Of a stretch of 64,000 nt of DNA, positions 20,050 through 34,070 are shown one piece after another. Each line of letters opens with the position of its first letter. Position 1 is the first letter of the stretch. The translations under genes and the position numbers were made by a program. Under the pieces are notes generated by a model. It ran no database searches and had not been told where the DNA came from. It saw only the letters and a list, made by a program, of their open reading frames with translations. Source of the stretch: Leifsonia shinshuensis (GTDB lineage Bacteria; Actinomycetota; Actinomycetes; Actinomycetales; Microbacteriaceae); NCBI RefSeq assembly GCF_014217625.1, contig NZ_CP043641.1, positions 3,038,001 through 3,102,000 on the forward strand. Reading direction: 5' to 3'.

Positions 20050-20535
20050 CTACAGGGTCGCGTCGACGAGGCGGGCACGTGCCGAAGGCAGGTCCGTGGT
20101 CCCGTCGGAGGTGTAGACCGACGCGCCGTCCGAGACGGCGTCGAAGGTGTCCTGGGCGGCGCGGAGCGCGTTGCGCAGCAGGCGGTCGTTGCCTGCGCGC
20201 ACGGTCCGGATCTCCCGGGTCAGGGTCACGAGGGCCTCCAGGTGGGCCGCGAAGATGCCCTGCCAGGCACCCTCGGGAGCGCCGGCCGCGAGCTCGCGCA
20301 GCCGGGTGTCGGCGGGCAGGCTCCACTCGATCGCGAGCGCGGACGCCGCGACGCTCATCGAGAGGGTGGCGGTCCGCAGTCGCTCGATCACGACCTCCGC
20401 CTCGCGGGTGGCGTGCGGCACCCAGCGGGCCTTGCCGGAGGCGAGAAGCAACTGCTCGACCTCGAATTTGTAGAGCAGCAGCTCCAGGAGCTCTCTCTGA
20501 CGCCAGAGCTCGTTCGACAGTTCGTTGGCGCCCAC
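20050..20535 (-). CDS. FlgN-like flagellar export chaperone
   Basis: 161-residue, mostly helical protein in the position of FlgN, directly upstream of flgK. It begins NELSNELWRQRELLELLLYKFEVEQ and shares the length and helical pattern of FlgN chaperones. The GTG start at 20535 is about 60 nt downstream of the predicted transcription start. A paralogue at 16804-17235 lies at the other end of the same operon. FlgN proteins diverge quickly, so the family call relies on context as well as pattern. Confidence 0.7.
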   Translation of the reverse strand: MGANELSNELWRQRELLELLLYKFEVEQLLLASGKARWVPHATREAEVVIERLRTATLSMSVAASALAIEWSLPADTRLRELAAGAPEGAWQGIFAAHLEALVTLTREIRTVRAGNDRLLRNALRAAQDTFDAVSDGASVYTSDGTTDLPSARARLVDATL

Positions 20536-20601: not shown

Positions 20602-20629
20602 CTATCGGCAGGAACGGGGCGCTTGTAAG
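20602..20629 (-). promoter_or_regulatory. Sigma-28-type promoter for flgN-flgK-flgL-fliW
   Basis: On the minus strand CTTAC begins at 20629 and GCCGATAG begins at 20609, 20 nt downstream. GCCGATAG matches the sigma-28 -10 consensus GCCGATAA at seven of eight positions. It faces away from the fliC promoter 37 nt to the right. Confidence 0.82.
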
Positions 20630-20665
20630 CATTTCGGGGGACACCGAAGTTCTTTCGACCGCGTG

Positions 20666-20693
20666 CTTACATCGGCGGCCGACCTGCCGATAG
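20666..20693 (+). promoter_or_regulatory. Sigma-28-type promoter for fliC
   Basis: CTTAC at 20666-20670 and GCCGATAG at 20686-20693 have the same 20-nt offset as the other three flagellar promoters in the window. Transcription would start near 20700, giving a fliC leader of about 55 nt. Confidence 0.85.
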
Positions 20694-20708
20694 GTCCATT
20701 CGTCGGCC

Positions 20709-20744
20709 CACGGATGGACCGGCTCAGCACACTCTCACGGAGGA
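20709..20744 (+). promoter_or_regulatory. Candidate CsrA-binding sites in the fliC leader
   Basis: CACGGATG (20709-20716) and CACGGAGGA (20736-20744) each contain the GGA core of CsrA targets, and the second overlaps the ribosome-binding site. csrA and fliW are both in this locus. Repression of flagellin translation by CsrA is known in Bacillus; here it is inferred. Confidence 0.45.
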
Positions 20745-20753
20745 TCGAACATC

Positions 20754-21605
20754 ATGGCTATGACCATCAACACCAACCTGAGCGCTCTCTCGGTCACGAA
20801 CTCGCTCAACCTCAACCAGGCCGCTCTGCAGAGCAGCATGAACAAGCTGTCGTCGGGCTCGCAGCTCAACACCGCTGCCGACAACCCGGCCGGCCTCGCG
20901 ATCTCGCAGGGCCTGCAGGCGCAGATCGGCGGCCTCAACCAGGCCGCGCAGAACACCGCCAGCGGCATCAACCTGATCCAGACCGCCTCCGGCGCGCTGT
21001 CCCAGGTGTCCAACATCCTGCAGACGCTCAACAGCCTCGCCGTCCAGGCCGCGAACGACACGAACAACACCGCGTCGCGCACGGACATCCAGACGCAGGT
21101 CACCGCGCTCACCGCCCAGCTCACCTCGATCGGCACGTCCACGAACTTCAACGGGGTCAACCTGCTCGACGGCTCGGCCACCGGCGCCAAGGCGCTGAAC
21201 TTCCAGACCGGCGCCAACGCGACGGACAGCGTCACCCTCGACCTCGGCACCGCCAGCGTGACCGCGCTGACGAAGACCGGCGGCGCACTCGACCCGGCGA
21301 CGCTCAAGTTCGACACCGCGGCCAACGCTCAGGCGTCGATCACCGCCATCCAGGGCGCGATCCAGACCGTGTCGACCGCGCAGGCGACCCTCGGCGCGAC
21401 CCAGAACGTGCTGACGGCGACCGCGCAGAACATCGCGGTCAACTCGCAGAACCTGACCGCCGCCAACTCGCAGATCGCGGACACCGACATGGCGTCCGAG
21501 ATGGCGAAGTACAGCAAGGAGAACGTGCTCATGCAGGCCGGCACCGCGATGCTCTCGCAGGCCAACCAGCAGAGCCAGCTCATCCTCAAGCTGCTCCAGG
21601 GCTGA
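20754..21605 (+). CDS. fliC: Flagellin
   Basis: 283-residue filament protein. The conserved D0/D1 N-terminal helix is TINTNLSALSVTNSLNLNQ, followed by LSSGSQLNTAADNPAGLAIS (positions 32-51). The C-terminal helix ends AMLSQANQQSQLILKLLQG. The variable middle is very short, so the filament surface domain is minimal. ATG 20754 has GGAGGA at 20739-20744. It is followed by a strong hairpin before fliD, consistent with a much higher yield of flagellin than of cap protein. Only one flagellin gene is present here. Confidence 0.96.
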   Translation: MAMTINTNLSALSVTNSLNLNQAALQSSMNKLSSGSQLNTAADNPAGLAISQGLQAQIGGLNQAAQNTASGINLIQTASGALSQVSNILQTLNSLAVQAANDTNNTASRTDIQTQVTALTAQLTSIGTSTNFNGVNLLDGSATGAKALNFQTGANATDSVTLDLGTASVTALTKTGGALDPATLKFDTAANAQASITAIQGAIQTVSTAQATLGATQNVLTATAQNIAVNSQNLTAANSQIADTDMASEMAKYSKENVLMQAGTAMLSQANQQSQLILKLLQG

Positions 21606-21614
21606 CGCCCTCAG

Positions 21615-21651
21615 GCGGGCGGCGACTGATTCGGGTTCAGTCGCCGCCCGC
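21615..21651 (+). terminator. Strong hairpin between fliC and fliD
   Basis: A perfect 15-bp stem, GCGGGCGGCGACTGA (21615-21629) with TCAGTCGCCGCCCGC (21637-21651), has a 7-nt loop. It starts 9 nt after the fliC stop. A short TCCCCT follows instead of a T tract. It is likely a terminator or attenuator that lowers expression of fliD and beyond. Confidence 0.7.
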
Positions 21652-21667
21652 TCCCCTGCAACCTGAA

Positions 21668-21680
21668 CACGGATCGGAGG
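21668..21680 (+). promoter_or_regulatory. Ribosome-binding site of fliD with possible CsrA site
   Basis: CACGGATCGGAGG contains two GGA cores, and the GGAGG part is the ribosome-binding site of fliD. CACGGAT recurs in the fliC and flgB leaders, which suggests a shared post-transcriptional signal. Confidence 0.35.
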
Positions 21681-21686
21681 ATTCGG

Positions 21687-23132
21687 ATGAGCTCAGTAGG
21701 AACGATCTCGCTGCCCTCCCTCACCGTGGGCAGCAATGGTCAGGTCTCGGTCTCGAACCTGGTCAACAACCTCGACCCGACGGCCATCGTCAACGCGCTG
21801 ATGACCGCGGAGGCCATCCCGCAGACCCAGCTCCAGGCGAAGGTCAAGACGGAGCAGACCGCCCTGTCGGCCTTCCAGAATCTGAACGCGACCCTTCAGG
21901 CGCTCCAGACCAGCGCAGCGGGGGCCGCGGCCACGAACGGCCTCAACCTGCTCACCGTCTCGAGCAGCGACTCGTCGGTCACCGCGTCGGCGACCACTTC
22001 GGCGTCGCCGACGTCCTTCTCGCTGCAGGTCGACCAGATCGCGCAGGCGCAGGTGTCCGTCACCGGCGCCATGACGACGTGGCCCGACGCGGGCGGCGCC
22101 ATCACGATCGTGGACTCGACCGGCACGGCGCATGGCATCACGGCCGCGTCCTCCAGCATCTCGGACGTGGTCGCCGCGATCAACGCCGCCGGGGTCGGCG
22201 TCACCGCCGCGCAGGTGGCCTCGGGCACAGACGCCTCGGGCAACCCGCAGTACCGGCTTCAGCTCACCTCCACGCAGACCGGCGCCGCCGCGGCGTTCCA
22301 GGTCTACGCCGGGACCAGCGCCGCCTACACGGCGGGCACCGCCACGAACCTCCTCACCCAGCCCGGAGCGGCCACCGTCACCGCCGCGCAGGACGCGCAG
22401 GTCACCCTCTGGCCGGGCACGGCGGCAGCGCAGACCGTCTCCTCGGCCACCGACACCTTCGCGGATCTCGTCCAGGGCGTCGCCGTGACCGTCACGAAGC
22501 CGACCACCACCCCGGTGACGTTGACCTCGAAGATGGACAGCACGAGCATCGCCTCGACCGCGTCCTCCCTGATCTCGGGCGTGAACACCCTGCTCTCCTA
22601 CATCTCGCAGCAGTCGGCTGTCTCCACGACCCAGAACACCGACGGGTCGAGCACGACGACCACCGGCACGTTCACGGGCAGCCTCCTGATCCAGGAGGTC
22701 TACCGGGGCCTGCAGTCGGCGGTCTCCGCCCCGGTCGGCCCCGGCGGGACGATCTCGCCCGCCACGTACGGGATCGCGATCCAGTCCGACGGCTCGATCA
22801 AGTTCGACAGCGCGAAGTTCCAGGCCGCGCTCGCGAGCGACCCGTCCGGCACCATCGCCGCCGTGCAGACCATCGCCTCGCGCGTGCAGGCGGCCAGCGC
22901 CACGGCCTCCGACCCGGTGACCGGCACGGTGACCGCGTCCATCTCGTCGCAGCAGACCCAGATCTCCAACGACCAGTCTTCGGTGAGCAACTGGACGACG
23001 ATGCTCGCGGCCAAGCGCAAGCTGCTGACGGCGCAGTACACGGCCCTCGTCACGACGCTGGGCCAGCTCCAGAACGAGCAGAACTACTTGACCCAGCAGA
23101 TCAACGCGATGAACCCGTCGTCGAACAACTGA
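21687..23132 (+). CDS. fliD: Flagellar filament cap protein FliD (HAP2)
   Basis: 481-residue cap protein that folds flagellin at the filament tip. The N-terminal part shows VSNLVNNLDPTAIVNALMTAEAIPQTQLQAKVKTEQTALSAFQNLNATLQAL (roughly positions 22-72), the FliD_N pattern. The C-terminal part has the coiled segment with LTAQYTALVTTLGQLQNEQNYLTQQI. ATG 21687 has GGAGG at 21676-21680. fliS begins 34 nt downstream. Confidence 0.93.
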   Translation: MSSVGTISLPSLTVGSNGQVSVSNLVNNLDPTAIVNALMTAEAIPQTQLQAKVKTEQTALSAFQNLNATLQALQTSAAGAAATNGLNLLTVSSSDSSVTASATTSASPTSFSLQVDQIAQAQVSVTGAMTTWPDAGGAITIVDSTGTAHGITAASSSISDVVAAINAAGVGVTAAQVASGTDASGNPQYRLQLTSTQTGAAAAFQVYAGTSAAYTAGTATNLLTQPGAATVTAAQDAQVTLWPGTAAAQTVSSATDTFADLVQGVAVTVTKPTTTPVTLTSKMDSTSIASTASSLISGVNTLLSYISQQSAVSTTQNTDGSSTTTTGTFTGSLLIQEVYRGLQSAVSAPVGPGGTISPATYGIAIQSDGSIKFDSAKFQAALASDPSGTIAAVQTIASRVQAASATASDPVTGTVTASISSQQTQISNDQSSVSNWTTMLAAKRKLLTAQYTALVTTLGQLQNEQNYLTQQINAMNPSSNN

Positions 23133-23166
23133 CGCCGGACTCTCCCCAGAAAGCTCGAGGATCGAC

Positions 23167-23595
23167 ATGCCTACAGCGGCACAGACCTACCGCGACAACG
23201 CCATCCTCTCCGCGTCGCCGTCGCGCCTGCTCACCATGCTGTACGACCGGCTGCTGCTCGACCTGAACACGGCGAAGGACGCGCTCGACGCCGGCGACCT
23301 CGCTGTCGCCGACTACCGGCTCACCCACGCGGTCGACATCCTCAGCGCGCTGGCGGGCTCGCTGCGCCTGGACGTCTGGAACGCGGCCGAGAGCCTTCTC
23401 GGCCTGTACATCTACGTGTCGAACGCGCTGATCCACTGCCGGGTGACCCGGGATGTCACGCTGGTCATCGAGGCCGTGGCGCTGCTGGAACCGCTCCGCC
23501 AGGCCTGGCACCAGGCCGCGGACTCCCTGTCGGCGGGGACCTCGTGGGAGGTCGACGCCGCGGACGACAACAGCGAGGTCGTGGCGATTGCCTGA
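23167..23595 (+). CDS. fliS: Flagellin export chaperone FliS
   Basis: 142-residue helical protein. The N terminus (TYRDNAILSASPSRLLTMLYDRLLLDL) is the diagnostic FliS segment that wraps flagellin C termini before export. The ATG at 23167 has GAGGA at 23157-23161. The last codons overlap a small downstream reading frame that sits where fliT is found in many bacteria. Confidence 0.94.
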   Translation: MPTAAQTYRDNAILSASPSRLLTMLYDRLLLDLNTAKDALDAGDLAVADYRLTHAVDILSALAGSLRLDVWNAAESLLGLYIYVSNALIHCRVTRDVTLVIEAVALLEPLRQAWHQAADSLSAGTSWEVDAADDNSEVVAIA

Positions 23596-23875
23596 CGACG
23601 GCGGGTGGGCGGAGGCGCTCGACGCACTCGAGGCGCGCGCGGCGCAGGCGGCGGGGCCGGAGGCCCTCGAGCCATGGCGCCCGGACGCGCCCCTCCCCGC
23701 ACTGCCGGCGGCGCTCGCCGAGCGTGCGCGCGAGGTGCAGGCCGCGCAGCAGCGCGCGATCGACGGGCTGCGCGATCAGCAGGAGCGGATCCGCGCCGAG
23801 CTGGAGTCGCTCGGCACCGTCCAGACGCCGCGCACGGACGCAGAACCTCCGGTCTACCTCGATCTGATCGGCTAG
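23588..23875 (+). CDS. Small coiled-coil protein in the fliT position
   Basis: 95-residue acidic helical protein. Its C-terminal half (about 45-80) has a heptad-like pattern in ARAEVQAAQQRAIDGLRDQQERIRAEL and it ends PPVYLDLIG. No family is certain, but size, helical character and place directly after fliS match FliT-type chaperones. The TTG start at 23588 overlaps the fliS stop by 8 nt, the only start near the frame opening. The next operon promoter begins at 23880, 5 nt after the stop. Confidence 0.55.
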   Translation: MPDDGGWAEALDALEARAAQAAGPEALEPWRPDAPLPALPAALAERAREVQAAQQRAIDGLRDQQERIRAELESLGTVQTPRTDAEPPVYLDLIG

Positions 23876-23879
23876 GACG

Positions 23880-23907
23880 CTAACGGCCCCGCCGATCCTG
23901 CCGATAG
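23880..23907 (+). promoter_or_regulatory. Sigma-28-type promoter for the flgB-to-flgE operon
   Basis: CTAACGG begins at 23880 and GCCGATAG at 23900, with the 20-nt offset shared by all four sites. It would drive basal-body, export-apparatus and hook genes, which are early genes elsewhere. Confidence 0.82.
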
Positions 23908-23918
23908 GCCACTACGAG

Positions 23919-23948
23919 CACGGATCGCTCGCCGCGGGCCACGGATCG
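23919..23948 (+). repeat. Two CACGGATCG direct repeats in the flgB leader
   Basis: CACGGATCG occurs at 23919-23927 and 23940-23948, 21 bp apart, inside the transcribed leader. Each holds a GGA core and matches the sequence near the fliD start. They may be CsrA-binding sites; a protein binding DNA is an alternative. Confidence 0.4.
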
Positions 23949-23986
23949 GCCTCCTCCTGGGAATACCACGATTCATGAGGTGAGCC

Positions 23987-24337
23987 TTGCTCGATTCCGT
24001 GACGATGAACGCGATGCACTCCGCCCTCGACGGCTATGCCGCGGCGCAGACCGCGATCTCGAACAACATCGCGAACATCAATACGCCCGGCTACCACGCC
24101 CAAGTCGTCGACTTCGCGTCCGCCCTGGAGAAGTCGGTGGCGGCCCACAGCGGCCAGCTGCCCGCCTCCGCCATCGCGGCGACGACGAGCATGGACCCGA
24201 CCCGGCTGAACGGCAACAACGTCTCGCTCGAGCAGGAGACCCTCGCCGAGGTCACCAACGGCCTGAAGTTCCAGGCGGCCTCGCAGGCGATGTCCCAGCA
24301 GTTCAGTGAGCTCCGCGCCGCTGCGACGGTGAACTGA
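23987..24337 (+). CDS. flgB: Flagellar proximal rod protein FlgB
   Basis: 116-residue rod protein. The rod signature NAMHSALDGYAAAQTAISNNIANINTPGY starts at about residue 8, and the C terminus is helical (LKFQAASQAMSQQFSELRAA). The TTG at 23987 lies just after GAGGTGAG (23978-23985); ATG 24005 is a later alternative that would remove residues before the signature helix. First gene of the long operon that runs to flgE. Confidence 0.88.
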   Translation: MLDSVTMNAMHSALDGYAAAQTAISNNIANINTPGYHAQVVDFASALEKSVAAHSGQLPASAIAATTSMDPTRLNGNNVSLEQETLAEVTNGLKFQAASQAMSQQFSELRAAATVN

Positions 24338-24339
24338 CC

Positions 24340-24732
24340 ATGAGCTACGACGCCATCGGCATCTCCGGCACGGGCATGACCCTCAACCAGACGTGGCTGG
24401 ACTCGATCAGCGACAACCTCGCGAACATCAACGACACCACCTCCCCCACCAACCCCGCCTTCCAGGAGCGCTTCGTGCAGGCGCAGGCGAACCCCGGCAT
24501 GAACGGCGTCTCGATCGGCGGCGTGGTCTACGGATCGTCCGCGGGACAGCTCGTCTACTCCCCCGGCGACCCGAACGCGGACTCGCAGGGCTACGTCAAG
24601 AAGACCACCATCGACATGGCCAGCCAGATGACCGACCTGATCGAGGCGCAGCGCGCGTACCAGGCGAACTCGAACGCGGTGAACGCCGCCAAGGACATGT
24701 ACCAGTCGGCCCTCCAGATCGGAGCCAAGTGA
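24340..24732 (+). CDS. flgC: Flagellar proximal rod protein FlgC
   Basis: 130-residue rod protein with the N-terminal signature ISGTGMTLNQTWLDSISDNLANINDT and the C-terminal conserved segment MTDLIEAQRAYQANSNAVNAAKDMYQSALQIG. The central motif in YVKKTTIDMASQM is typical. It starts 2 nt after the flgB stop, and its stop overlaps the fliE ATG. Confidence 0.93.
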   Translation: MSYDAIGISGTGMTLNQTWLDSISDNLANINDTTSPTNPAFQERFVQAQANPGMNGVSIGGVVYGSSAGQLVYSPGDPNADSQGYVKKTTIDMASQMTDLIEAQRAYQANSNAVNAAKDMYQSALQIGAK

Positions 24733-25040
24733 TGAGCATCCCGGCCATCGGAGCACTCTCGCTCGGAAACGTCCAGCAGCCGACTCCCGCCGTCGCTCCC
24801 GCCTCGTCGGGATCCGGCGCAGGCGGCTTCGGCGCCGCGCTGACGGGCGCGGTGAACAACCTCCAGCAGCTGCAGAGCACGTCCGACGCGGCGAACGTCA
24901 AGGCGGTCACCGGCAACCTGAACGACATCCAGGACGCGACCGTCGCCGCGGCCCGCGTGCAGACGACGGTGCAGCTCATGGCGACGCTGCGCAACCAGGC
25001 CGTCGACGCGTTCAACACGATCATGCGGATGGGCGGGTAG
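24732..25040 (+). CDS. fliE: Flagellar hook-basal body protein FliE
   Basis: 102-residue adaptor between the MS ring and the rod. The C-terminal helices show NVKAVTGNLNDIQDATVAAARVQTTVQLMATLRNQAVDAFNTIMRM (positions 55-100), the FliE pattern. The ATG overlaps the flgC stop, and fliF follows without a gap. Confidence 0.9.
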   Translation: MSIPAIGALSLGNVQQPTPAVAPASSGSGAGGFGAALTGAVNNLQQLQSTSDAANVKAVTGNLNDIQDATVAAARVQTTVQLMATLRNQAVDAFNTIMRMGG

Positions 25041-26639
25041 GTGCCGGCCCGGCTCCAGGCGATCCTCAAGCGCGTCGGCGCGACGATCGCCGGCTTCAGC
25101 TTCGCGCAGAAGACCGTCTCGGTCCTCGCGCTCCTCGTGCTCACGCTCGGCGTGACCGGCCTGTCGGTCTGGCTGACCCAGCCGCAGTACGTCCCGCTGT
25201 TCAGCGGGATCTCGGCCTCCGACGCCTCGGCCATCACCACGCAGCTGCACACCGACAACGTGCCGTACCAGTTGACGGACGGCGGGGCGACCATCCTCGT
25301 GCCGCAGGCGCAGGTCTACCAGGAGCGCCTGAAGGCGGCGGCGGCCAACCTCCCGACCAGCAGCAACCAGGGCTACTCCCTGCTCGACAACATGGGCGTC
25401 ACGACCTCCGAGTTCCAGCAGGACGTCACGTACAAGCGCGCGATGGAGGGCGAGCTCGCCAGCACGATCGACGCGATGCAGGGCGTCAAGACCGCCTCGG
25501 TCAAGCTGGCGATCCCGCAGCCGACGGTGTTCACCGACCAGGCGCAGGACCCGACGGCGAGCGTCTTCGTCGACGAGAGCGCCGGCACCACCCTGACGCC
25601 GGCGCAGGTGCAGGCGATCGTGCACCTCGTCTCGTCCTCGACCGTGGGCATGAAGCCCACCGACGTCTCCGTCATCGACGCCGCGGGCAACGTGCTCTCG
25701 GCCATGGGAGGAGCCACCGCAGGCTCGACCGGCGACCAGGCGAAGGCCTACGACAGCGCCGTGCAGGCCAGCGTGCAGTCGATGCTCGACAAGGTGCTCG
25801 GCTCGGGCAACTCGACCGTCGTCGTGAGCGCGCTGATGGACAACTCGACCTCCACGAAGACGACCGACAGCTACAGCATCCCGACCGGCGCGCCGCAGAC
25901 GAGCTCGTCGTCGCAGAAAGAGACCTACACCGGCACCGGAGCTGCGGCCCAGTCCGGCGTGCTCGGCACCAGCTCCACGACGAACGGGGTCTCGAACACC
26001 GCGGCGAACAGCGGAGGCAACGGCAGCTACAGCTCGGAGAACACCACGAGCGACAACGCGCTGGACAAGACCAGCGTCACGCAGCAGATCCCGGCGGGCG
26101 GTGTCCAGCGGCAGACGGTCTCCGTCGCGGTCGACAGCGCGGCGGCGACCAAGGCCGGGGTGAGCTCGAGCCAGCTCCAGCAGATGGTGGCCAACGCCTC
26201 CGGCGTCGACACCTCGCGCGGCGACGCGGTGGGCGTGCAACTGGTCAACTTCTCGCAGGCGAACGCGCAGGCCGCGAAGCAGGCGCTCGCGCAGGCCCAG
26301 GCGCAGACGCAGCAGGCGCAGCTGGACTCGTGGATCCGCACCGGCCTGATCGCCGCGGGCATCGTGGTCGCGATGATCGTCGCGCTCATCGTCTTCCGCC
26401 GCCGCCGCAGGAACGCGGAGGTCGACGGTGGCGACCGTTACGAGGAGCTGGCCGCGCCGACCCTCGCCTTCACGCAGGTCGCCGCGCCGACCGTGCCGCT
26501 GACCACCCCTCCGCCGACGCCGGCCGCCGTCGAGTCGGAGCAGCGCAGGGCCGAGATCGAGCAGCTCGCCGTGGACGACCCGCGTCGTGCCGCGGACTTC
26601 CTGCTCAGCCTGATGGGTGAGAAGGAGCCGACGCCGTGA
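25041..26639 (+). CDS. fliF: Flagellar MS-ring protein FliF
   Basis: 532-residue membrane protein forming the MS ring. A membrane segment at about 25-48 is followed by the ring-building motif domains (YVPLFSGISASDASAITTQL; VPQAQVYQERLKAAAANLP). The central region is Ser/Thr/Gly-rich, and a second membrane segment (about 435-455) is followed by RRRRR. The C-terminal tail, which contacts FliG, holds IEQLAVDDPRRAADFLLSLM. The GTG start is directly after the fliE stop, and the stop overlaps fliG. Confidence 0.94.
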   Translation: MPARLQAILKRVGATIAGFSFAQKTVSVLALLVLTLGVTGLSVWLTQPQYVPLFSGISASDASAITTQLHTDNVPYQLTDGGATILVPQAQVYQERLKAAAANLPTSSNQGYSLLDNMGVTTSEFQQDVTYKRAMEGELASTIDAMQGVKTASVKLAIPQPTVFTDQAQDPTASVFVDESAGTTLTPAQVQAIVHLVSSSTVGMKPTDVSVIDAAGNVLSAMGGATAGSTGDQAKAYDSAVQASVQSMLDKVLGSGNSTVVVSALMDNSTSTKTTDSYSIPTGAPQTSSSSQKETYTGTGAAAQSGVLGTSSTTNGVSNTAANSGGNGSYSSENTTSDNALDKTSVTQQIPAGGVQRQTVSVAVDSAAATKAGVSSSQLQQMVANASGVDTSRGDAVGVQLVNFSQANAQAAKQALAQAQAQTQQAQLDSWIRTGLIAAGIVVAMIVALIVFRRRRRNAEVDGGDRYEELAAPTLAFTQVAAPTVPLTTPPPTPAAVESEQRRAEIEQLAVDDPRRAADFLLSLMGEKEPTP

Positions 26640-27658
26640 CCGACACCAAGACGGCGCCGCTGACGGGTGCGCAGAAGGCCGCCCTGATCCTGATGAACCT
26701 GGATCAGGCGGCGGCGGCGCGCGTCATGCAGCAGTTCAGCGAGGCGGAGTCCGAGGAGATCGCCGCGGAGATCGTCGCGCTCAAGCGCGTGGACCGCCAG
26801 CAGGCCGAAGCGGCGCTCGTGGAGTTCCACGAGCTCGCCGTGCGGCAGCAGGCGCGTGTCAGCGGCGGCCGCAGCGCGGCCATCGGCCTGCTGGAGGCGT
26901 CCTTCGGCACCGAGCGCGCCGCCGGCGTGATGTCCCGCGTGGCGTCCTCCCTCGCCGGGCGCGCCTTCGAGTTCCTGGACACCGCCGACCCCGCGCAGGT
27001 CGCACTCCTGCTCGACGGCGAGCTGTCGCAGACCATGGCGACCGTGCTCGCCCATCTGCGCGCCGACCAGGCATCGCGGGTGCTCGCGGCGCTCAAGCCG
27101 GAGATCCGCACCGACGTGGCGCACTGCATCGCGACCATGGGGAGCGTGAGCCCGGAGGTGGCGCGCACCGTCGCCGACACGCTGCGCAGCCGCGCCGGTT
27201 CGGTCGTCAAGACCAAGGACCAGCAGGACGCCATCGGCGGCGTGCAGCCCCTGGTGGACATCATCAACCGGTCGAGCGTCGCCAACGAGCGCGCGCTCCT
27301 CGACGAACTGGACCAGCGCGATCCCGACCTGGCCGCCGAGGTGCGCTCGCGGATGCTGACGTTCGCGGACATCGTGAAGCTGGAGCCGCGCGACGTGCAG
27401 CAGGTGCTGCGCGGCATCGACGTCTCCATGCTGGCGATCGCCATGAAGGGCTCCCCCGAGGCGACCAGGGACGTCATCCGCGCCAACCTCTCGGAGCGCA
27501 ACCTCGAGGTGCTCGACGAGGAGTCGTCGGTGCTCGGCTCGATCCGGCTCTCCCGGGTCGAGGAGGCCAGGGCCGAGATCGTGCGCGCCATCCGCGACCT
27601 CGAAGCGGAGGGCACGATCACGGTGCACCGCTCGGACGAGGACGAATATGTCGAATAG
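26636..27658 (+). CDS. fliG: Flagellar motor switch protein FliG
   Basis: 340-residue C-ring protein that couples stator torque to the rotor. The N-terminal domain (KAALILMNLDQAAAARVMQQFSEAESEEIAAEI) contacts FliF. The middle domain and the C-terminal domain carry FADIVKLEPRDVQQVLRGID and the charged torque helix around ARAEIVRAIRDLEAEGTI. The GTG start overlaps the fliF stop, and its end overlaps fliH by 11 nt. Confidence 0.95.
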   Translation: MTDTKTAPLTGAQKAALILMNLDQAAAARVMQQFSEAESEEIAAEIVALKRVDRQQAEAALVEFHELAVRQQARVSGGRSAAIGLLEASFGTERAAGVMSRVASSLAGRAFEFLDTADPAQVALLLDGELSQTMATVLAHLRADQASRVLAALKPEIRTDVAHCIATMGSVSPEVARTVADTLRSRAGSVVKTKDQQDAIGGVQPLVDIINRSSVANERALLDELDQRDPDLAAEVRSRMLTFADIVKLEPRDVQQVLRGIDVSMLAIAMKGSPEATRDVIRANLSERNLEVLDEESSVLGSIRLSRVEEARAEIVRAIRDLEAEGTITVHRSDEDEYVE

Positions 27659-28262
27659 TGCGTTCGCCCCGGTGCGGTACCCCGAGCTCGGGTCGACCGG
27701 CACGGCCGTCGCGGCCGGAGCCGGCGGCGCGTCGAGCGCGCGGGCCCGCGGGTTCGCGGCCGGGTACAGCGAGGGCCTGCGGCGCGCCGAAGCCGAGTTC
27801 GCGGAGGCCGAGCGCGTCCGGCTCCAGCACTGGCAGGCGGCGGAGGCGGAGTCCGCTGCGGCGACCCGGCGCGCCCTGGCGGCGCTCGCCGCGGCCGCCG
27901 AGGGCGTGCGCGCTCTCGCCGTCCCCGTCGTCGCCACCGCCGACGACGCCCTGGTGGAGGCGGCGCTCGCGCTCGCCGAGGCCATCCTCCAGCGCGAGGT
28001 CGCCGAGGGCCACGTCGAAGCGGCCGACACGTTGCGCCGGGTCATCGCCGCGACTCCGGCCGGAGAGCTGGTCTCGGTGCGGATGCATCCGGACGACGCC
28101 GCTGCCGTCGCGCAGGAGGTCGGCGCCCTCCCGGAGATCGTGGCCGACCCCTCCATCGCGCCGGGCGACGCTGTCGCCGTCCTGCGCGACGGCTGGCTGG
28201 ACGCCCGGATCGACGCGGGCCTCGAACGGGCGCGCACCGTCCTGACGGGAGACCGCGCATGA
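27648..28262 (+). CDS. fliH: Flagellar export ATPase regulator FliH
   Basis: 204-residue Ala/Glu-rich protein. The first half is a long helix with AxxxG-like spacing (GFAAGYSEGLRRAEAEFAEAE), and the C-terminal domain (about 100-200) resembles FliH/YscL (DDALVEAALALAEAILQREV, VSVRMHPDDAAAV). It links the FliI ATPase to the C-ring. The call relies on both pattern and its place between fliG and fliI. Confidence 0.85.
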   Translation: MSNSAFAPVRYPELGSTGTAVAAGAGGASSARARGFAAGYSEGLRRAEAEFAEAERVRLQHWQAAEAESAAATRRALAALAAAAEGVRALAVPVVATADDALVEAALALAEAILQREVAEGHVEAADTLRRVIAATPAGELVSVRMHPDDAAAVAQEVGALPEIVADPSIAPGDAVAVLRDGWLDARIDAGLERARTVLTGDRA

Positions 28263-29587
28263 CCGGGTACGCGCCGGGAGGCGAGCGGCTGGCGCCGGCG
28301 GTCCGCGCGGCAGCGCCGGAGCGGATCGGTCGCGTCTCCTCCGTCGTCGGCCTCGGCATCGAGGTGGCCGGACTGGAGGGCGCGGTCGGCGACCTCGTCG
28401 CGATCGGCGAGCCGGGAGCGGACACCGCGGCCCAGGTCGTCGCCGTGCGCCCGGGCCTGCTCACCTGCATGGTGCTGTCCGGAACGGCGGCGCACCCCAT
28501 CGGCACGCCCGTGCGCACCGCGCCGGCCGCTCCGGCCGTCCCCGTCGGCGACGCCCTGCTCGGCCGGGTCATCGACGGACTCGGCCGTCCGATCGACGGC
28601 AAGGGACCCCTTCCTCCGCTGCAGCACGTCGCCCTGGCCAAGACCGCGCCCGGTCCGCTGGAGCGCGCCAGGATCACGTCGCCCCTGCAGCTCGGCGTGC
28701 GCGCCCTCGACACCCTGGTGTCCACCGGCCGCGGGCAGCGGCTCGGCCTCTTCGCCGGCTCGGGCGTGGGAAAGTCGTCGCTGCTGTCGATGATCGCCCG
28801 CGGGACCGACGCCGAGGTGTCGGTGATCGCCCTGATCGGCGAGCGCGGCCGCGAGGTGCGCGAGTTCATCGAGGACGACCTCGGCCCCGACGGTCTGGCC
28901 CGATCGATCGTCGTCGTCTCCACCTCGGACGAGCCCGCTCTGATGCGGCTGCGGGCCTCCCTCGTCGCGACCCGGATCGCGGAGTGGCACCGCGACCGCG
29001 GCCAGCACGTCGTGCTGATGATGGACTCGCTGACCCGCGTCGCCATGGCGCAGCGCGAGATCGGCCTCTCGGCCGGAGAGCCCCCGGCCACGCGCGGCTA
29101 CCCGCCGTCGACGTTCTCCACGCTGGCCTCGCTCTTGGAGCGCGCCGGAGCGGCGGCCACCGGATCGATCACCGGGCTCTACACGGTCCTGGTCGACGGC
29201 GACGACCACAACGAGCCCATCGCGGACGCGGCGCGTTCGATCCTCGACGGCCACGTCGTCCTCGACCGCGCGCTCGCGATCACCGGCCACTTCCCCTCCA
29301 TCGACGTGCTGGGCTCGATCTCCCGGCTCGCCTCGAAGATCACTCCCCGGGACCGGCTGGCCGACGCGACGGCGCTGCGCGCGGTGCTCTCCGCACGCCG
29401 GAGCGCCCAGGACCTGCTCGACGTCGGCGCGTACAAGCCGGGTGCGAACGCCCGGGTCGACGCCGCGGTGCAGTTCGAGGCGGCGATCGACGGCTTCCTC
29501 CAGCAGGGCATGGATCAGCAGTCCACGGCGGACGGGGCGTGGGATTCGCTCCGCGAGCTGACCCGGGCGTTCGGAGCGGCCGCATGA
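28259..29587 (+). CDS. fliI: Flagellum-specific export ATPase FliI
   Basis: 442-residue hexameric ATPase homologous to F1 beta. Walker A is GLFAGSGVGKSS (about 163-174). Walker B is VLMMDSLTRVAMAQREIGL, and the GEPPATRGYPPSTF segment is specific for the FliI/YscN group. It energises export of rod, hook and filament subunits. ATG overlaps the fliH stop, and fliJ starts by overlap at its end. Confidence 0.96.
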   Translation: MTGYAPGGERLAPAVRAAAPERIGRVSSVVGLGIEVAGLEGAVGDLVAIGEPGADTAAQVVAVRPGLLTCMVLSGTAAHPIGTPVRTAPAAPAVPVGDALLGRVIDGLGRPIDGKGPLPPLQHVALAKTAPGPLERARITSPLQLGVRALDTLVSTGRGQRLGLFAGSGVGKSSLLSMIARGTDAEVSVIALIGERGREVREFIEDDLGPDGLARSIVVVSTSDEPALMRLRASLVATRIAEWHRDRGQHVVLMMDSLTRVAMAQREIGLSAGEPPATRGYPPSTFSTLASLLERAGAAATGSITGLYTVLVDGDDHNEPIADAARSILDGHVVLDRALAITGHFPSIDVLGSISRLASKITPRDRLADATALRAVLSARRSAQDLLDVGAYKPGANARVDAAVQFEAAIDGFLQQGMDQQSTADGAWDSLRELTRAFGAAA

Positions 29588-30012
29588 AGCGATTCGGACT
29601 GGCGGGGCTCCTGCGCGTGCGCGACCTCGAGGAGCAGCGCGCCGCGGCGGAGCTCGCCGAGGCGAACCGGGCGGTGGACGCCGTCCGCGCCCGGGGATCC
29701 CGGACGCGCGCGTCGCTGGCCGGGGTCCGGTCGGAGGCCGTGGACGCCGCCACCCTCTCGGCCGTGGTCGCCGCACGGGCGAGCGCCCAGGTGCTGCTCG
29801 GCGAGCTGTCGGCCCTGCACGAACTCGCGGCCAGGGAGGCCGGGGAGGCCCGGTCGGCGCACGGCGCCGCGCGCGCGTCCGCCGTCTCGCTGGAGAAGCT
29901 CCGGCGGCGGCACACCGATTCCGAGATCGCCCGCGAGCTGCGCGAGGAGCAGTCCGCCCTCGACGAGGTGGCCATCCAGGGTTGGCGCGAGAGCAGGAAG
30001 GACGCGGTATGA
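29584..30012 (+). CDS. fliJ: Flagellar export protein FliJ
   Basis: 142-residue charged coiled-coil protein starting KRFGLAGLLRVRDLEEQRAAAELAEANRAV, in the FliJ position directly after fliI. FliJ is the stalk of the export ATPase and escorts chaperones. Sequence identity in this family is low, so length, coil and context carry the call. The stop overlaps the next start. Confidence 0.8.
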   Translation: MKRFGLAGLLRVRDLEEQRAAAELAEANRAVDAVRARGSRTRASLAGVRSEAVDAATLSAVVAARASAQVLLGELSALHELAAREAGEARSAHGAARASAVSLEKLRRRHTDSEIARELREEQSALDEVAIQGWRESRKDAV

Positions 30013-30797
30013 GCATCACGGAGGCCGTGGGGCGCATCCAGCAGATCGAGTCCCAGATGGTGCAGCTCGCCGGCGGGCAGCCGGCGCAGACCGCGCAGAC
30101 GACCAGCGCCGCCGCGTCCGCCTTCGCGACGAGCCTGGCCGCGGCGACCGGGACGACCGGCGCCCAGGTCACGCCGGCGGCCGGGCAACAGGCGTCGAAC
30201 GGGACCACCGGCGCGGACATCGTGGCCGACGCCCGCAAGTACCTCGGCGTCCCCTACGTCTTCGGCGGCACGACCAGCGCGGGCCTCGACTGCTCCGGGC
30301 TCGTGCAGCGCGTCTACGGCGATATGGGGATCTCGCTGCCGCGACTGGTCTCCGGCCAGTCGACCATCGGCCAGGCCGTGCCGTCGCTCGCCGACGCGCA
30401 GCCGGGCGACCTCATCGTCTGCAACGGCGGCGAGCACATCGTCATCTACGCGGGCAACGGGAAGATCATCCAGGCGCCCAAGCCGGGCGGCTCGGTCGAA
30501 GAGATGGACAACTGGATCTCGCCGTCGAACGTGGTGACCATCCGCCGGATCGTGCCGACCGCCACGGCGGCCACATCGGCGACCATGTCCGCGTCGTCGG
30601 CCGCGGCGCTCGCGTCGCTGCTCGGCTCCGGCGGCTCCGCGTCGTCGCTCGCGTCGCTGCTCGGGTCGAACGGTGGATCGTCGGTCCTCGGCCTGCTCGG
30701 TTCGAGCGGAGGGTCGGCGCTCTCGGGGCTCCTCGGCTCCGGCGGCGGCAGCGCGCTGGCGGCGCTGCTCGGTCAGAGCTCGGGGGTGAACTCGTGA
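30009..30797 (+). CDS. NlpC/P60 peptidoglycan hydrolase in the flagellar operon
   Basis: 262-residue cysteine peptidase. The NlpC/P60 domain covers about residues 68-182, with catalytic Cys95 (DCSGLV), His143 (EHIVIYAG) and a third polar residue at about Gln155. The N-terminal 45 residues are helical, without a normal signal peptide, so export through the flagellar apparatus is possible. The C terminus (about 200-260) is a low-complexity series of LLGS-x-GGS repeats. It occupies the place between fliJ and fliK and could do the wall-opening job that FlgJ muramidase does elsewhere. ATG 30009 overlaps the fliJ stop. Confidence 0.85.
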   Translation: MSITEAVGRIQQIESQMVQLAGGQPAQTAQTTSAAASAFATSLAAATGTTGAQVTPAAGQQASNGTTGADIVADARKYLGVPYVFGGTTSAGLDCSGLVQRVYGDMGISLPRLVSGQSTIGQAVPSLADAQPGDLIVCNGGEHIVIYAGNGKIIQAPKPGGSVEEMDNWISPSNVVTIRRIVPTATAATSATMSASSAAALASLLGSGGSASSLASLLGSNGGSSVLGLLGSSGGSALSGLLGSGGGSALAALLGQSSGVNS

Positions 30798-32083
30798 GCG
30801 CGGCGGTCTCGGGATTCGGCGCCGCAGGCGCCGCGGGCGCCGCCGGGCTCCTCGCACCGGTCGCCTCGGATGCGGCGTCCGCCGGCGGCATGTCGTTCGG
30901 AACGGCGCTGCTGTCCGCACTGGCCGCCGACCCGGGCACGTCGAATCCGACCACTCCCGCACACCCGTCGCCCTCCGCCGACGCGGGTTCGGCGGAGACT
31001 CCCGCCGAAACCGGCGCCGCGACACCGCCGACGGTTACGCCCGCTCCGGCTCCTGCCGTTCTCCTCGGCCTCGCCACGCCCGCCGCGCCGGCCGTGCAGG
31101 AGGCTGTGACGTCGACGGCCCCGGATGCGGGCTCCCACGGAAAGCAGCCCGCGTCCCCGCGCGCGGCGGGCGCGGAGCTCCGCCATGACGCCGTCTCCCC
31201 CGCCATCGCCGACGCACTCGGCGTCGGGCAGCTCGCGGTCCAGCAGGCGATGAACGTCGCGCAGCTCCCCGTCGCACCGATCCCCGCTGACACGTCGGCG
31301 GCGGCACCGGCGGCGGCTCCGGCCTCGTCCGCGGCTGTCGACGCGGTGGCGGCGACCTCCGCGCCTCCTGCTCCTGCTCCGACCCCCGCTCGTGATGCGA
31401 GCGCGCAGCCGATCGAGCCGGCGACGGTCAGCGCCGGCGCCCAGCCACCCGTGGCGCCCCTGGTGACCGCGCCCGCCCGCCCGACCTCCAAGACGCCGTC
31501 CGGACCGTCGGCCCCGGTCGCCGAGCCCGCGACCGTCTCCACGGCGACCCCCATGCCGGCGCAGGCTCCGGCAGCGCCGACCTTCGCGACAGCGCTCGCC
31601 GCCGCAGCCCCTGCGGCCCCCGCGGCCTCCACCGCTCCGACCCCGGCTCCCCCGCTGCAGCAGCAGCTCGCCCAGCCGGTGATGACGCTCGCGCGCCAGC
31701 CCGACGGCGACCACGTCGTGGTCGTCCGGGTCGCGCCCGACGACCTCGGCCCCGTCACCGTGCACGCGCGGGTCAGCGACACGGGCGTCCACATCGAGCT
31801 GTTCGCGCCGAGCGACGACGGCCGGGAGGCCATCCGCCAGATCCTCACCGACCTGCGCCGCGACCTCAACGCGACGACGGCGAACGCGTCGGTCTCCGTG
31901 TCCGACCAGAACGCGCCAGGCGCCCAGAGCGACGGCGGAGGCCGGTCCCAGTGGGCCTCCGCGGACGAGCGCGGATCGGCGACCACGGCGGACAGCCTCG
32001 ACGAGCAGGCACCCGCCTTGCGCGACATCCCCGTACCGGCCCGCGTCCTCCCGGGCGCCCGAACCCTCGACATCGTCGTCTGA
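30794..32083 (+). CDS. fliK: Flagellar hook-length control protein FliK
   Basis: 429-residue protein with a long Ala/Pro-rich disordered N-terminal part (to about residue 290), which serves as a molecular ruler. The conserved C-terminal hook-length domain contains VVVVRVAPDDLGPVTVHARVSDTGVHIELFAPSDDGREAI. The GTG start overlaps the stop of the NlpC/P60 gene. flgD follows after 20 nt, as in many Gram-positive loci. Confidence 0.88.
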   Translation: MSAAVSGFGAAGAAGAAGLLAPVASDAASAGGMSFGTALLSALAADPGTSNPTTPAHPSPSADAGSAETPAETGAATPPTVTPAPAPAVLLGLATPAAPAVQEAVTSTAPDAGSHGKQPASPRAAGAELRHDAVSPAIADALGVGQLAVQQAMNVAQLPVAPIPADTSAAAPAAAPASSAAVDAVAATSAPPAPAPTPARDASAQPIEPATVSAGAQPPVAPLVTAPARPTSKTPSGPSAPVAEPATVSTATPMPAQAPAAPTFATALAAAAPAAPAASTAPTPAPPLQQQLAQPVMTLARQPDGDHVVVVRVAPDDLGPVTVHARVSDTGVHIELFAPSDDGREAIRQILTDLRRDLNATTANASVSVSDQNAPGAQSDGGGRSQWASADERGSATTADSLDEQAPALRDIPVPARVLPGARTLDIVV

Positions 32084-32103
32084 CCGCGAAGGAGAGCACA
32101 GCC

Positions 32104-32541
32104 ATGGTCAACCCCGTCTCCACCACCGCCACCGACCCCACCGCGACGACCTCGCTCTGGTCGACGCAGCCCACCCGGGCTCCGCACCAGTCGCTGACAG
32201 CTGACGACTTCATGCAGCTGCTGGTGACGCAGCTCAAGAACCAGGACCCCAGCTCGCCGATGGACTCGGCCGCGATGGTCCAGCAGACGACGCAGCTCGG
32301 GATGATGCAGCAGATGACGGCGATCGGCTCCAGCAGCAACACCGCCCTCAACCTGCAGATGCAGACCGCGGCCGCCGACCTGATCGGCAAGACCGTCATC
32401 TACAACGACGCCGCCGGGAAGTCCCAGACGGGCGTCGTCACGGGCGTCTCGTTCTCGGGTGCGACCCCCACCGTGTCCGTCAACGGCGGCACCTTCCCCC
32501 TCTCCGGAATCCTCGGCGTCCAGCAGACTCCGGCCTCCTAG
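32104..32541 (+). CDS. flgD: Flagellar hook cap protein FlgD
   Basis: 145-residue hook scaffold protein. The conserved segment LTADDFMQLLVTQLKNQDPSSPMDSAAMVQQTTQLGMMQQM (about residues 31-71) is diagnostic. It is a short form, with little beyond the N-terminal domain and one small beta domain. ATG 32104 is preceded by AAGGAG at 32089-32094. Confidence 0.93.
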   Translation: MVNPVSTTATDPTATTSLWSTQPTRAPHQSLTADDFMQLLVTQLKNQDPSSPMDSAAMVQQTTQLGMMQQMTAIGSSSNTALNLQMQTAAADLIGKTVIYNDAAGKSQTGVVTGVSFSGATPTVSVNGGTFPLSGILGVQQTPAS

Positions 32542-32567
32542 TCCCCACCACCGAAAGGCACACTCCC

Positions 32568-33746
32568 ATGCTCCGTTCTCTCGACTCCGGCGTCTCGGGC
32601 CTCCAGGCGCAGCAGACCATGCTCGACGTGGTCGGCAACAACATCGCGAACGTCAACACCACCGGCTACAAGTCCTCGTCCGTCGAGTTCGAGGACACCC
32701 TCTCCCAGATGATCGGCACGGCTTCCGGGCCGCAGGGCAACCAGGGCGGCACCTCGCCGGCCCAGGTCGGCCTCGGCGTGCGGGTCGCGGCGACCGCGAC
32801 CAACTTCACCGAAGGCGCCGCGCAGACCACCGGCGTCGGCACCAACCTGATGATCAACGGCGACGGCTTCTTCATCGTCAACAACGGCGGCCAGACCCAG
32901 TACACGCGCTCCGGCGCGTTCACCACGGACGCCTCCGGCAACCTGGTCAGCCCGGACGGCGCGATCGTGCAGGGCTGGTCCGCGACCAACGGCGTCGTCA
33001 ACTCGTCCGCCCCGGTCTCCAACATCACCCTGTCGACGACCGGCCTGTCTGCGGCCCGCGCGACCTCGAACGCCGCGATGACCGGCAACCTGGCCGACGA
33101 CGCGGCCGTCGGCGCCACCGTCAACAGCCAGGTGACCGTCTACGACGCGAACGGCGCGCAGAGCAACCTGACCATGACCTTCACCCGCAACGCCACAGGC
33201 GGCTGGGACGTCTCCGGCGCCGACGCGGCGGGCAACACCGCCACCGGCACGGTCACGTTCACGAACGGCGCGATGACGCCCGCCCAGAGCCTCACGGTCG
33301 GCGGCGTCACCGTCGACGTGTCGAAGATCACCGGCTTCGCGGGCTCGGGCGGCGTCAACTTCGCCTCCCAGAACGGGACCGCCGCCGGATCGCTGCAGTC
33401 GTTCTCGATCGAGAACGACGGCACGATCATGGGCGCGTTCTCCAACGGCGAGAAGCAGGCCGTCGGCCGCGTCGCCCTCGCCAACTTCACCAACCCGGGC
33501 GGGCTTCAGAAGGCCGGCAACTCCAACTTCATCGCCACCCCGAACTCCGGGCTCCCCCAGGTCGGCCAGGCGGGAAGCGGCAGCCTCGGCACGATGACCA
33601 GCGGCGCGATCGAGGGCTCCAACGTCGACCTGGCGCGGGAGTTCACCAACCTCATCGTGGCGCAGCGCGCGTTCCAGGCCTCCGCCCGGGTGATCACGAC
33701 CTCCGACGACGTGCTGCAGGAGCTCCTGCAACTGAAGACGCAGTGA
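32568..33746 (+). CDS. flgE: Flagellar hook protein FlgE
   Basis: 392-residue hook subunit. The N-terminal signature LRSLDSGVSGLQAQQTMLDVVGNNIANVNTTGYK and the C-terminal segment NVDLAREFTNLIVAQRAFQASARVITTSDDVLQELLQL are both present. The central domain of about 200 residues distinguishes it from the rod protein FlgG, of which there is no copy in this window. It closes the operon that began at flgB. Confidence 0.93.
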   Translation: MLRSLDSGVSGLQAQQTMLDVVGNNIANVNTTGYKSSSVEFEDTLSQMIGTASGPQGNQGGTSPAQVGLGVRVAATATNFTEGAAQTTGVGTNLMINGDGFFIVNNGGQTQYTRSGAFTTDASGNLVSPDGAIVQGWSATNGVVNSSAPVSNITLSTTGLSAARATSNAAMTGNLADDAAVGATVNSQVTVYDANGAQSNLTMTFTRNATGGWDVSGADAAGNTATGTVTFTNGAMTPAQSLTVGGVTVDVSKITGFAGSGGVNFASQNGTAAGSLQSFSIENDGTIMGAFSNGEKQAVGRVALANFTNPGGLQKAGNSNFIATPNSGLPQVGQAGSGSLGTMTSGAIEGSNVDLAREFTNLIVAQRAFQASARVITTSDDVLQELLQLKTQ

Positions 33747-33753
33747 TCCTGAG

Positions 33754-33781
33754 CTAACGGATCCGCCCCGGCTGCCGATAG
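33754..33781 (+). promoter_or_regulatory. Sigma-28-type promoter for the flbD-to-flhA operon
   Basis: CTAACGG begins at 33754 and GCCGATAG at 33774, again 20 nt apart. The start would be near 33788. It drives motor and export-gate genes. Confidence 0.83.
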
Positions 33782-33842: not shown

Positions 33843-34070
33843 ATGATCACGGTGACCAGGCTGAACCACGTGCCGTTCGCCGTGAACCCGGACCTGATCG
33901 AACGGATCAACGCCGACCCCGACACCACTCTGACGATGGTCGACGGCGTGCGCTACGTGGTGACGGAGACGATGGCCGAGGTCATCGACCGGATCGCCGC
34001 GTTCCGCGCGGAGGTGCTCGATCGCGCATACCGGCTGGGACGGCCGGCCGACACGGGCGAAGGGAGCTGA
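33843..34070 (+). CDS. flbD: Flagellar protein FlbD
   Basis: 75-residue small protein of the FlbD family. The pattern ITVTRLNHVPFAVNPDLIERINADPDTTLTMVDGVRYVVTETMAEVIDRI runs over most of its length (from residue 2). The function is not well defined; it regularly sits between flgE and motA or fliL in Gram-positive flagellar loci. Two nt separate it from motA. Confidence 0.9.
   Translation: MITVTRLNHVPFAVNPDLIERINADPDTTLTMVDGVRYVVTETMAEVIDRIAAFRAEVLDRAYRLGRPADTGEGS

Follow-up and report, generated by a model that had tools for sequence, protein, structure and literature searches.

How is the assembly of a flagellum ordered when the operons for its first and its last parts all begin with the same type of promoter and the anti-sigma factor FlgM is missing? 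This question is raised by the flagellar gene cluster of Leifsonia shinshuensis (family Microbacteriaceae) in a stretch of 64,000 nucleotides (nt), here called the window (positions 3038001-3102000 of contig 1 in a genome of 4,608,984 bases and 3 contigs), where the cluster extends from a sigma factor gene (15987) to csrA (44838). How flagellated Actinobacteria order flagellar expression when FlgM is absent and no master regulator is known is a question that the excerpts of PMC2587704 and PMC4255298 leave open. Our preferred answer, to which we assign a probability of roughly 60%, is that one sigma factor would serve all units and that CsrA and FliW would set the order after transcription. The answer has three parts: a regulon of one sigma factor whose promoters are defined, a leader with twin hairpins at the early operon, and a dyad that is a candidate operator of fliA. 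The most interesting result is the twin-hairpin leader, which is widely conserved; if the CsrA part is true, the order of assembly would be coded in mRNA leaders and not in promoters. The literature searched, as excerpted, held no account of CsrA in connection with an actinobacterial flgB leader, and the site on flagellin had already been predicted (PMC2587704).

The window holds four copies of the pattern CTWAC-N15-GCCGATAG, each a sigma-28-type promoter at the head of a flagellar unit:

20602..20629, minus strand: promoter of the flgN-flgK-flgL-fliW unit, CTTAC-N15-GCCGATAG (exact pattern; site in 76/77 family loci)
20666..20693, plus strand: promoter of the fliC-fliD-fliS unit (exact pattern; 92/93 family loci)
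23880..23907, plus strand: promoter of the early flgB-flgC-fliE-fliF-fliG-fliH-fliI-...-flgE unit (exact pattern; 92/99 family loci)
33754..33781, plus strand: promoter of the flbD-motA-motB-fliM...flhA unit (exact pattern; 52/53 family loci)

At all four sites the start-to-start distance from CTWAC to GCCGATAG is 20 nt, which bears out the geometry and positions given in a first-pass annotation of this DNA. The number of copies expected from shuffled sequence was 0.00, and none of 100 shuffles attained four. A scan of the whole genome returned these four exact matches only, with 0 for the reversed pattern as control. The N15 spacing, which is usual for sigma-28 promoters, is kept throughout. 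Against the flagellar sigma consensus TAAA / GCCGATAA quoted in PMC8325347, the -10 element, which the same annotation had matched to the sigma-28 consensus, agrees at every site in 7 of 8 letters, the last letter differing, and the -35 element (TAAC or TTAC) agrees in 3 or 2 of 4 letters. We rejected a wider genomic sigma-28 regulon: with up to 3 mismatches the genome gave 271+278 matches, versus 583+593 for the reversed control.

In order to see these sites in their family context, 398 genomes of Microbacteriaceae were surveyed, of which 118, in 35 of 85 genera, were FliF-positive. The loci examined, up to 20 kilobases (kb) each, came from the genome itself and 99 other FliF-positive genomes; 18 were omitted owing to short contigs, fragments or a position near a contig end (G044, G054, G114, G124, G168, G176, G177, G209, G254, G264, G292, G299, G317, G324, G338, G342, G357 and G388). 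Sites were scored out of 13 points against CTWAV-N13..17-GCCGATAD within 350 nt upstream, with a threshold of at least 11. Counts per gene skip loci in which the gene was not found or had less than 150 nt upstream, and site counts exclude the window as well as L116 for fliC and L148 for fliA, which had been misplaced at the edge of their loci. On this basis a site precedes flgN in 76/77 loci, fliC in 92/93, flgB in 92/99 (83 of these 92 with a spacing of exactly 15) and flbD in 52/53. Genes internal to the units score 0/99 each (fliF, fliG, flgC), 0/94 (flgE), 1/99 (fliI) and 2/97 (fliD), and all 12 sites found before motA in 47 loci are the flbD site itself. Exact sites number 152 and are spread over 77 of the 99 loci; 145 of these sites precede fliC (50), flgB (42), flgN (29), flbD (16) or flgL (8). 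The remaining seven include one before a second flagellin-like leader (L144) and one before a second copy of the twin hairpin (L077), treated below. Five exact sites (L085, L102, L112, L131, L133) precede an open reading frame (ORF) that starts with GTGACGGTCCAGGAACA and might be fliM forming a unit of its own.

Sigma-28-type control of all four unit heads, including early flgB, is therefore a well-supported prediction for the whole family. Outside the family the -35 element is often CTCA[AGT] and the remaining geometry is kept. Under a laxer score, sites of at least 11 were counted by eye at flgB in 26/37 loci, fliC in 21/25 and flgN in 20/25, with fliA (2/22) as the control in place of shuffles and one edge row omitted. 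CTAAC is used at both fliC and flgB in the Sinomonas and Glutamicibacter loci, and in the Zafaria locus at fliC only. Judged by these sites, control of early genes by the flagellar sigma characterises the family and not this genome in particular, and it probably extends to much of the class. The primary papers on FliA-family control in Actinoplanes missouriensis are reportedly Jang 2016 and Hashiguchi 2020. Since WhiG-like flagellar sigmas are said to transcribe the flagellar genes of Actinoplanes (PMC8325347), such control of early genes is not wholly new, and the idea that the arrangement is special to this genome has to be given up. A. missouriensis resembles the present case in being an actinomycete with flagellar genes under WhiG-like sigmas; it differs in its developmental control and its three FliA-family sigmas, and the excerpted account mentions no hairpins in the flgB leader and names no Microbacteriaceae, Micrococcales or Leifsonia (PMC8325347). 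As for the earlier claim that the early units depend on sigma-28, the sites stand conserved at all heads, flgB included, and the dependence itself is predicted from them.

Between its promoter and its start codon, the early operon carries two hairpins of CsrA type, each identified with a covariance model (R1):

23916..23930, plus strand: flgB leader hairpin 1, GAGC-[ACGGATC]-GCTC
23937..23951, plus strand: flgB leader hairpin 2, GGCC-[ACGGATC]-GGCC
23987..24337, plus strand: flgB, TTG start, product MLDS... (Pfam Flg_bb_rod)

R1 was built from 28 of 93 flgB leaders (alignment A1), so that 27 of the 99 family loci are in training. Within the window, itself part of the training set, it matches 23912-23955 with 52.1 bits, the next match in the genome having 21.5 bits. 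All 99 family loci match with E no higher than 0.01; 72 lie outside the training set, and the weakest match of all has 23.3 bits (L154). The leader set (window included) was limited to loci with a site of at least 11, and a hairpin was defined by at least 4 base pairs (bp) and ANGGA in the loop; two or more such hairpins occur in 91 of 93 flgB leaders, compared with a shuffled mean of 0.10 of 93. Hairpin 1 begins 8 nt past the -10 element in 62/92 leaders and, if initiation is as usual, would lie at the very 5' end of the mRNA. The second hairpin ends at least 23 nt before the start estimated by the script's rule in 91/92 leaders, and ANGGA within 22 nt of the start was found in only 17/93. 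Since both elements lie this far from the start, simple blocking of the Shine-Dalgarno sequence of flgB is unlikely.

Beyond the family, with the same limit on E, R1 matched 15 of 20 loci from the class (missing L177, L180, L182, L183 and L190) and 15 of 17 named non-family loci (missing L254 and L256), the positive genera including Sinomonas, Glutamicibacter, Cellulosimicrobium, Sanguibacter, Oerskovia, Isoptericola and Flavimobilis. A search of 296 class genomes under stricter filters gave a match of at least 32 bits in 14 genomes, all of them FliF-positive and with the match about 1.1-1.2 kb upstream of fliF, and four further FliF-positive genomes had a weaker match at the same place. Because chance matches reach 31.2 bits, scores under 32 bits are counted by position only. 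Alignment A3, fitted to the model, comprises 88 matches from 98 sources (61 of the 99 family loci and 37 others). Across its 83 distinct sequences pairing holds in 99.8% of the pair cells, and there are 10 double changes versus 0.5 in shuffles. The loops read A-N-GGA in both hairpins, with A in 79/83 and 83/83, GGA nearly invariant and any base at N. The recognition rule of CsrA/RsmE is ANGGAN (PMC7652899), and the flgB loops look like a fit to this rule, making the leader a putative CsrA target. None of the Rfam families scored over its gathering score in the window.

Several points weigh against this interpretation. At flgB, R1 was found in only 18 of the 37 FliF-positive class genomes, leaving 19/37 without a listed match, and 17 other class genomes have chance matches elsewhere, up to the 31.2 bits mentioned; conservation of the twin hairpin outside the family is thus partial at the sensitivity of the class search. 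In the alignment, slides of +2 and +3 match or exceed the covariation score of the structure, with far fewer paired cells. The loops are 7 nt long as paired, and extra loop letters can reduce affinity in a CsrA homologue (PMC7652899). Furthermore, the flgB leader of the window folds no better than its shuffles do (z 0.11), and hairpin 1 is lost from the fold of lowest energy, in which the 5' arm pairs with the start-codon region (23914-24010). We considered this alternative pairing as a switch and rejected it, as it showed neither covariation nor an excess over permuted pairs.

A second copy of the twin hairpin, 4.0-5.7 kb further on, is present in 9 of the 99 loci. In Frigoribacterium sp. PhB116 (L211) it stands before an ORF that is fliH by position, just ahead of fliI, where it follows ORFs that are non-flagellar by eye and lies behind CTTAC...GCCGAGAG. 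The copy in Microbacterium sp. ASV49 (L226) is likewise placed, behind an imperfect site, and that of L077 lies behind an exact sigma-28-type site. It thus seems that a new early operon head acquires the promoter and the twin hairpin as a pair.

The protein that would bind these hairpins and its antagonist are encoded in the same cluster:

44602..44838, plus strand: csrA, 78 amino acids (Pfam CsrA 77.4 bits, over the 27-bit cut-off)
17365..17721, minus strand: fliW, CsrA antagonist family (Pfam 51.2 bits)

The residues L4 and R44, which are important in CsrA, are present by eye. Within the family csrA occurs in 115 of 398 genomes, which are 115 of the 118 FliF-positive and 0 of the 280 FliF-negative ones; FliF-positive genomes without it are G264, which has a FliF fragment only, and two genomes that are 63% and 68% complete. 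FliW was detected in 79 of the 80 FliF-positive genomes searched (80 of 118). FlgM was found in 0 of the 398 family genomes by a search whose control was positive in 3 of 14 named genomes, and its absence from later actinobacterial classes has been described (PMC10746217; PMC4255298). The flagellar island of Kineococcus radiotolerans is similar in having a FliA homologue, csrA among the flagellar genes, no known master regulator in the island and a predicted CsrA site on the flagellin Shine-Dalgarno sequence; unlike here, neither a flgB leader element nor a promoter pattern is described in the excerpt, which also notes the linkage of csrA with flagellar genes in L. xyli (PMC2587704).

The flagellin leader contains CsrA-type elements as well:

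20702..20723, plus strand: fliC leader hairpin with ACGGAT, one stem mismatch here (family covariation)
20737..20743, plus strand: second fliC ANGGA, overlapping the Shine-Dalgarno sequence (ACGGAGG; 92/94 leaders)
20754..21605, plus strand: fliC, flagellin (Pfam)

ANGGA lies within 22 nt of the fliC start in 92/94 leaders, as CACGGAGG in 61 of them, and a further ANGGA lies 16 nt past the -10 element in 76/94. The strict ANGGA hairpin was counted in 65/94 leaders versus 6.4 in the control. In alignment A2, which holds 30 chosen leaders of the 94, the helix shows 31 double-change cells versus 8.9, a value reached in 0/500 shuffles, with covariation in 5 of 7 pairs. As judged from the alignment, this is the hag architecture, a putative CsrA hairpin plus a site at the Shine-Dalgarno sequence. 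It is weakened by the window's own fliC hairpin, which is mismatched and went uncounted by the strict hairpin script, and by a fliC leader that is not unusually stable in the window (z 0.63). Folding stability was discarded as evidence for leaders, being negative for both flgB and fliC of the window. The excess of hairpins is weaker in flbD leaders (14/53 versus 3.2 in the control), and flgN leaders show no ANGGA hairpin excess (3/77 versus 3.6). In the Hag-FliW-CsrA system of B. subtilis, the flagellin leader likewise has two CsrA sites, one of them on the Shine-Dalgarno sequence, and FliW is the antagonist; that switch is described for hag, whereas here the early operon also bears CsrA-type hairpins (PMC7652899). 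B. subtilis differs further in possessing FlgM, as seen in the control of our FlgM search.

The sites, the hairpins, their conservation and the co-occurrence of the genes are observed. Building on them, we infer the sigma dependence, the binding of CsrA, the signs of its effects and their timing in the following model. One FliA/WhiG-like sigma would transcribe the units headed by flgN, fliC, flgB and flbD, as the conserved sites suggest, and order between early and late genes, lacking FlgM, would be set post-transcriptionally by CsrA. On the early flgB mRNA, CsrA would bind the two ANGGA hairpins at the extreme 5' end; on the fliC mRNA, it would bind the ANGGA hairpin and the Shine-Dalgarno sequence. 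We prefer opposite signs for the two: binding at the 5' end would stabilise the early mRNA (compare E. coli flhDC), and binding at the Shine-Dalgarno sequence would block translation of flagellin (compare B. subtilis hag). FliW, released when flagellin is exported, would then strip off CsrA and reverse both effects. E. coli flhDC is comparable in that CsrA has two sites close to the 5' end of its mRNA, the putative ones of flgB being placed relative to the -10 element; it is the mRNA of a master regulator, whereas the mRNA concerned here is that of a structural operon for rod, MS ring and export, and its protection is putative (PMC7652899).

The sign of the effect on flgB is a guess, drawn by analogy. 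In Campylobacter, where CsrA also binds several flagellar leaders and FliW antagonises it, deletion of csrA altered FlaA and did not alter FlaG, FlaB or FlgI substantially, which tells against the model; deletion of fliW did lower FlaG, FlaB and FlgI. Campylobacter is unlike the present case in its three-sigma hierarchy, and flgB is no notable target there (1.6-fold; PMC4894983). CsrA might instead repress both flgB and fliC, so that a backlog of flagellin would hold FliW, and free CsrA would halt flagellin and new basal bodies, which would control the number of flagella and not their order. The identical ANGGA elements on both leaders fit such dual repression, as does the fact that CsrA acts more commonly as a repressor (PMC7652899). 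It is hard to reconcile with the distance of the flgB hairpins and ANGGA motifs from the start codon given above (91/92 and 17/93), and we regard it as unlikely, though worth keeping in view.

The one-sigma model with opposite CsrA effects may extend to flagellated Actinomycetes in general, with an RNA checkpoint in place of the sigma/anti-sigma pair, CsrA acting with opposite sign on early leaders (bearing a duplicable module of promoter plus twin hairpin) and on flagellin leaders, and FliW reading the completion of the hook. We put this wider version forward tentatively and rate it at somewhat less than an even chance.

The promoter part of the model can also be challenged at flgB itself. 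The flgB unit might be read in addition from a sigma-A promoter in or upstream of the preceding gene, its sigma-28 site being auxiliary like the weak SigD promoter of B. subtilis fla/che. C. difficile flgB has a SigA-like promoter, with early genes slightly SigD-dependent, and B. subtilis uses both kinds (PMC3865298); moreover, the flgB site begins a few nt past the stop codon of the upstream ORF, so other promoters would fall in coding sequence. An auxiliary role sits poorly with the retention of the flgB site in 92 of 99 family loci and with the joint recurrence of site and hairpins at the split-off early operon, and we think it improbable.

What, then, would drive the sigma gene? The relevant features are as follows:

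15987..16778, plus strand: FliA/WhiG-like sigma factor gene (TIGR02479 122.3 bits; top of 56 families)
15770..15986, plus strand: fliA upstream region, with degenerate CCC-N5-GGG dyads at 15820-15830 and 15883-15894 and TAATTT at 15857-15862

The gene had been called a FliA-type sigma. FliA/WhiG models are indeed its best match, and the label FliA/WhiG-like is used because the NCBIfam TIGR02479 score, though the best of 56 families, is under the curated cut-off of 189.6. The closest solved structures are 6pfv (87.1 bits), which we take to be WhiG, and 6pfj, followed by FliA 6pmi and 1rp3. By synteny the gene sits in the flagellar cluster. Counted by eye, 75 of 100 loci have fliA between a divergent flgN and fliC; in 2/100, the window and L060, it lies on the far side of the flgN-fliW unit. 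No sigma-28 site is present in 15770..15986, and in the family a site of at least 11 precedes fliA in 8/85 loci. Among these, by eye, the sites of L112 and L115 are simply the site of the divergent flgN read on the complementary strand, and those of L097, L142 and L150 overlap the flgN site. As the sigma gene so rarely carries such a site, something else must start its expression, in agreement with the first-pass annotation. We propose that the gene stands outside its own regulon and would be driven by a sigma-A-type promoter.

A candidate operator for such a starter is a dyad, CCCC-N5/6-GGGG, found in 57/84 fliA upstream regions of the family; the form CCCC-N5-GGGG alone occurs in 57/86 regions versus 3.3 expected. 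Two copies of the dyad, spaced by 21-23 bp, are present in 14/86, and its centre lies 40-42 nt before TANNNT in 33 of the 75 dyad-TANNNT pairs within 80 nt. The strict dyad CCCCNTANTGGGG is exclusive to the region upstream of fliA in the congeneric genomes G226 and G304 (2/2 each) and found there in 2/3 cases in G385, amounting to 6 of 7 matches in the three genomes. G134 has three copies and G240 one, all at other places, and G071 has none. From its sequence and position the dyad looks like a candidate activator operator upstream of a sigma-A-type promoter, and in many relatives fliA would probably be activated by a protein on it. In the window, the dyads are degenerate and their spacing is off the family rule, which tells against the same control in this lineage.

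The dyad might alternatively be a terminator or an RNA hairpin and no operator, given that CCCC-N5/6-GGGG before flgB in 30 loci resembles terminators of the upstream unit. With flgN divergent from fliA in 75/100 loci (by eye), there is nothing to terminate, and the doubling, the fixed distance to TANNNT and the concentration of the strict form at fliA in congeneric genomes are further arguments against a terminator, which we consider distinctly improbable. The dyads before flgB were rejected as the same operator, since their middle letters differ and their position suits terminators. A CsoR-type operator was suggested by the one extra strict dyad in G385, at a gene that is CsoR-like by eye; the fliA dyad is placed as an activator site would be, ahead of the -35 zone. 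TcrA-like direct repeats were considered for the fliA leader: CACCCGA and ACCCGAA occur more often upstream of fliA than expected (27/84 regions each versus 4.0 and 2.3), with a spacing that by eye is a misfit for the TcrA box. A scan of the cluster's ORFs, all but the one at the fliP position, showed no transcription factor that might regulate fliA; a Fur-family and a GntR-family gene are present in other parts of the window. A strict dyad at L164 (G134:C4:141394) precedes a small gene whose product is STAS-like by eye.

The weakest rival, which corresponds to the single-tier hierarchy read by the first-pass annotation and would have all units fire together by transcription only, with order arising from export specificity and chaperones and with hairpins as CsrA-free stability elements, agrees with the one promoter type on all units and the lack of FlgM, and is very unlikely in view of the A-N-GGA loops with their free N, the confinement of csrA to FliF-positive genomes, the presence of FliW in 79/80 and a fliC leader of known CsrA architecture. 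Because of the CsrA-type hairpins at flgB and fliC, the co-occurrence of csrA and fliW and the absence of FlgM, the hierarchy is probably not single-tiered, and a second, post-transcriptional tier is indicated.

The remaining genes of the cluster were assigned mainly by Pfam. On the minus strand these are flgN, flgK, flgL and fliW plus a weak second FlgN-like gene; the fliC-headed unit has flagellin (fliC), FliD and FliS; the flgB-headed unit has flgB, flgC, fliE, fliF, fliG, fliH, fliI, an NlpC/P60 gene, fliK, flgD and flgE; and the flbD-headed unit has flbD, motA, motB, fliM, fliN, fliO, fliQ, fliR, flhB and flhA. Two unit heads complete the list:

20050..20535, minus strand: flgN (Pfam 52.6 bits)
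33843..34070, plus strand: flbD/swrD (Pfam 86.8 bits)

After flhA, two other genes precede csrA; to judge from gene spacing, the flbD-headed unit may perhaps reach csrA. The protein that follows flhA (42744-43535) had no match in Pfam or NCBIfam and, by eye, is perhaps a degenerate FlhF. CheW, the sole chemotaxis family searched, is absent from the genome search, and the flagella may perhaps work without a CheW-based chemotaxis system. The second FlgN-like gene (16804-17247) is convergent with fliA and scores 24.3 bits, under its cut-off, as does a FliJ-like stretch at 29587-29982. Within the flgB unit, the NlpC/P60 peptidase gene (29982-30797) possibly encodes a peptidoglycan enzyme of the rod.

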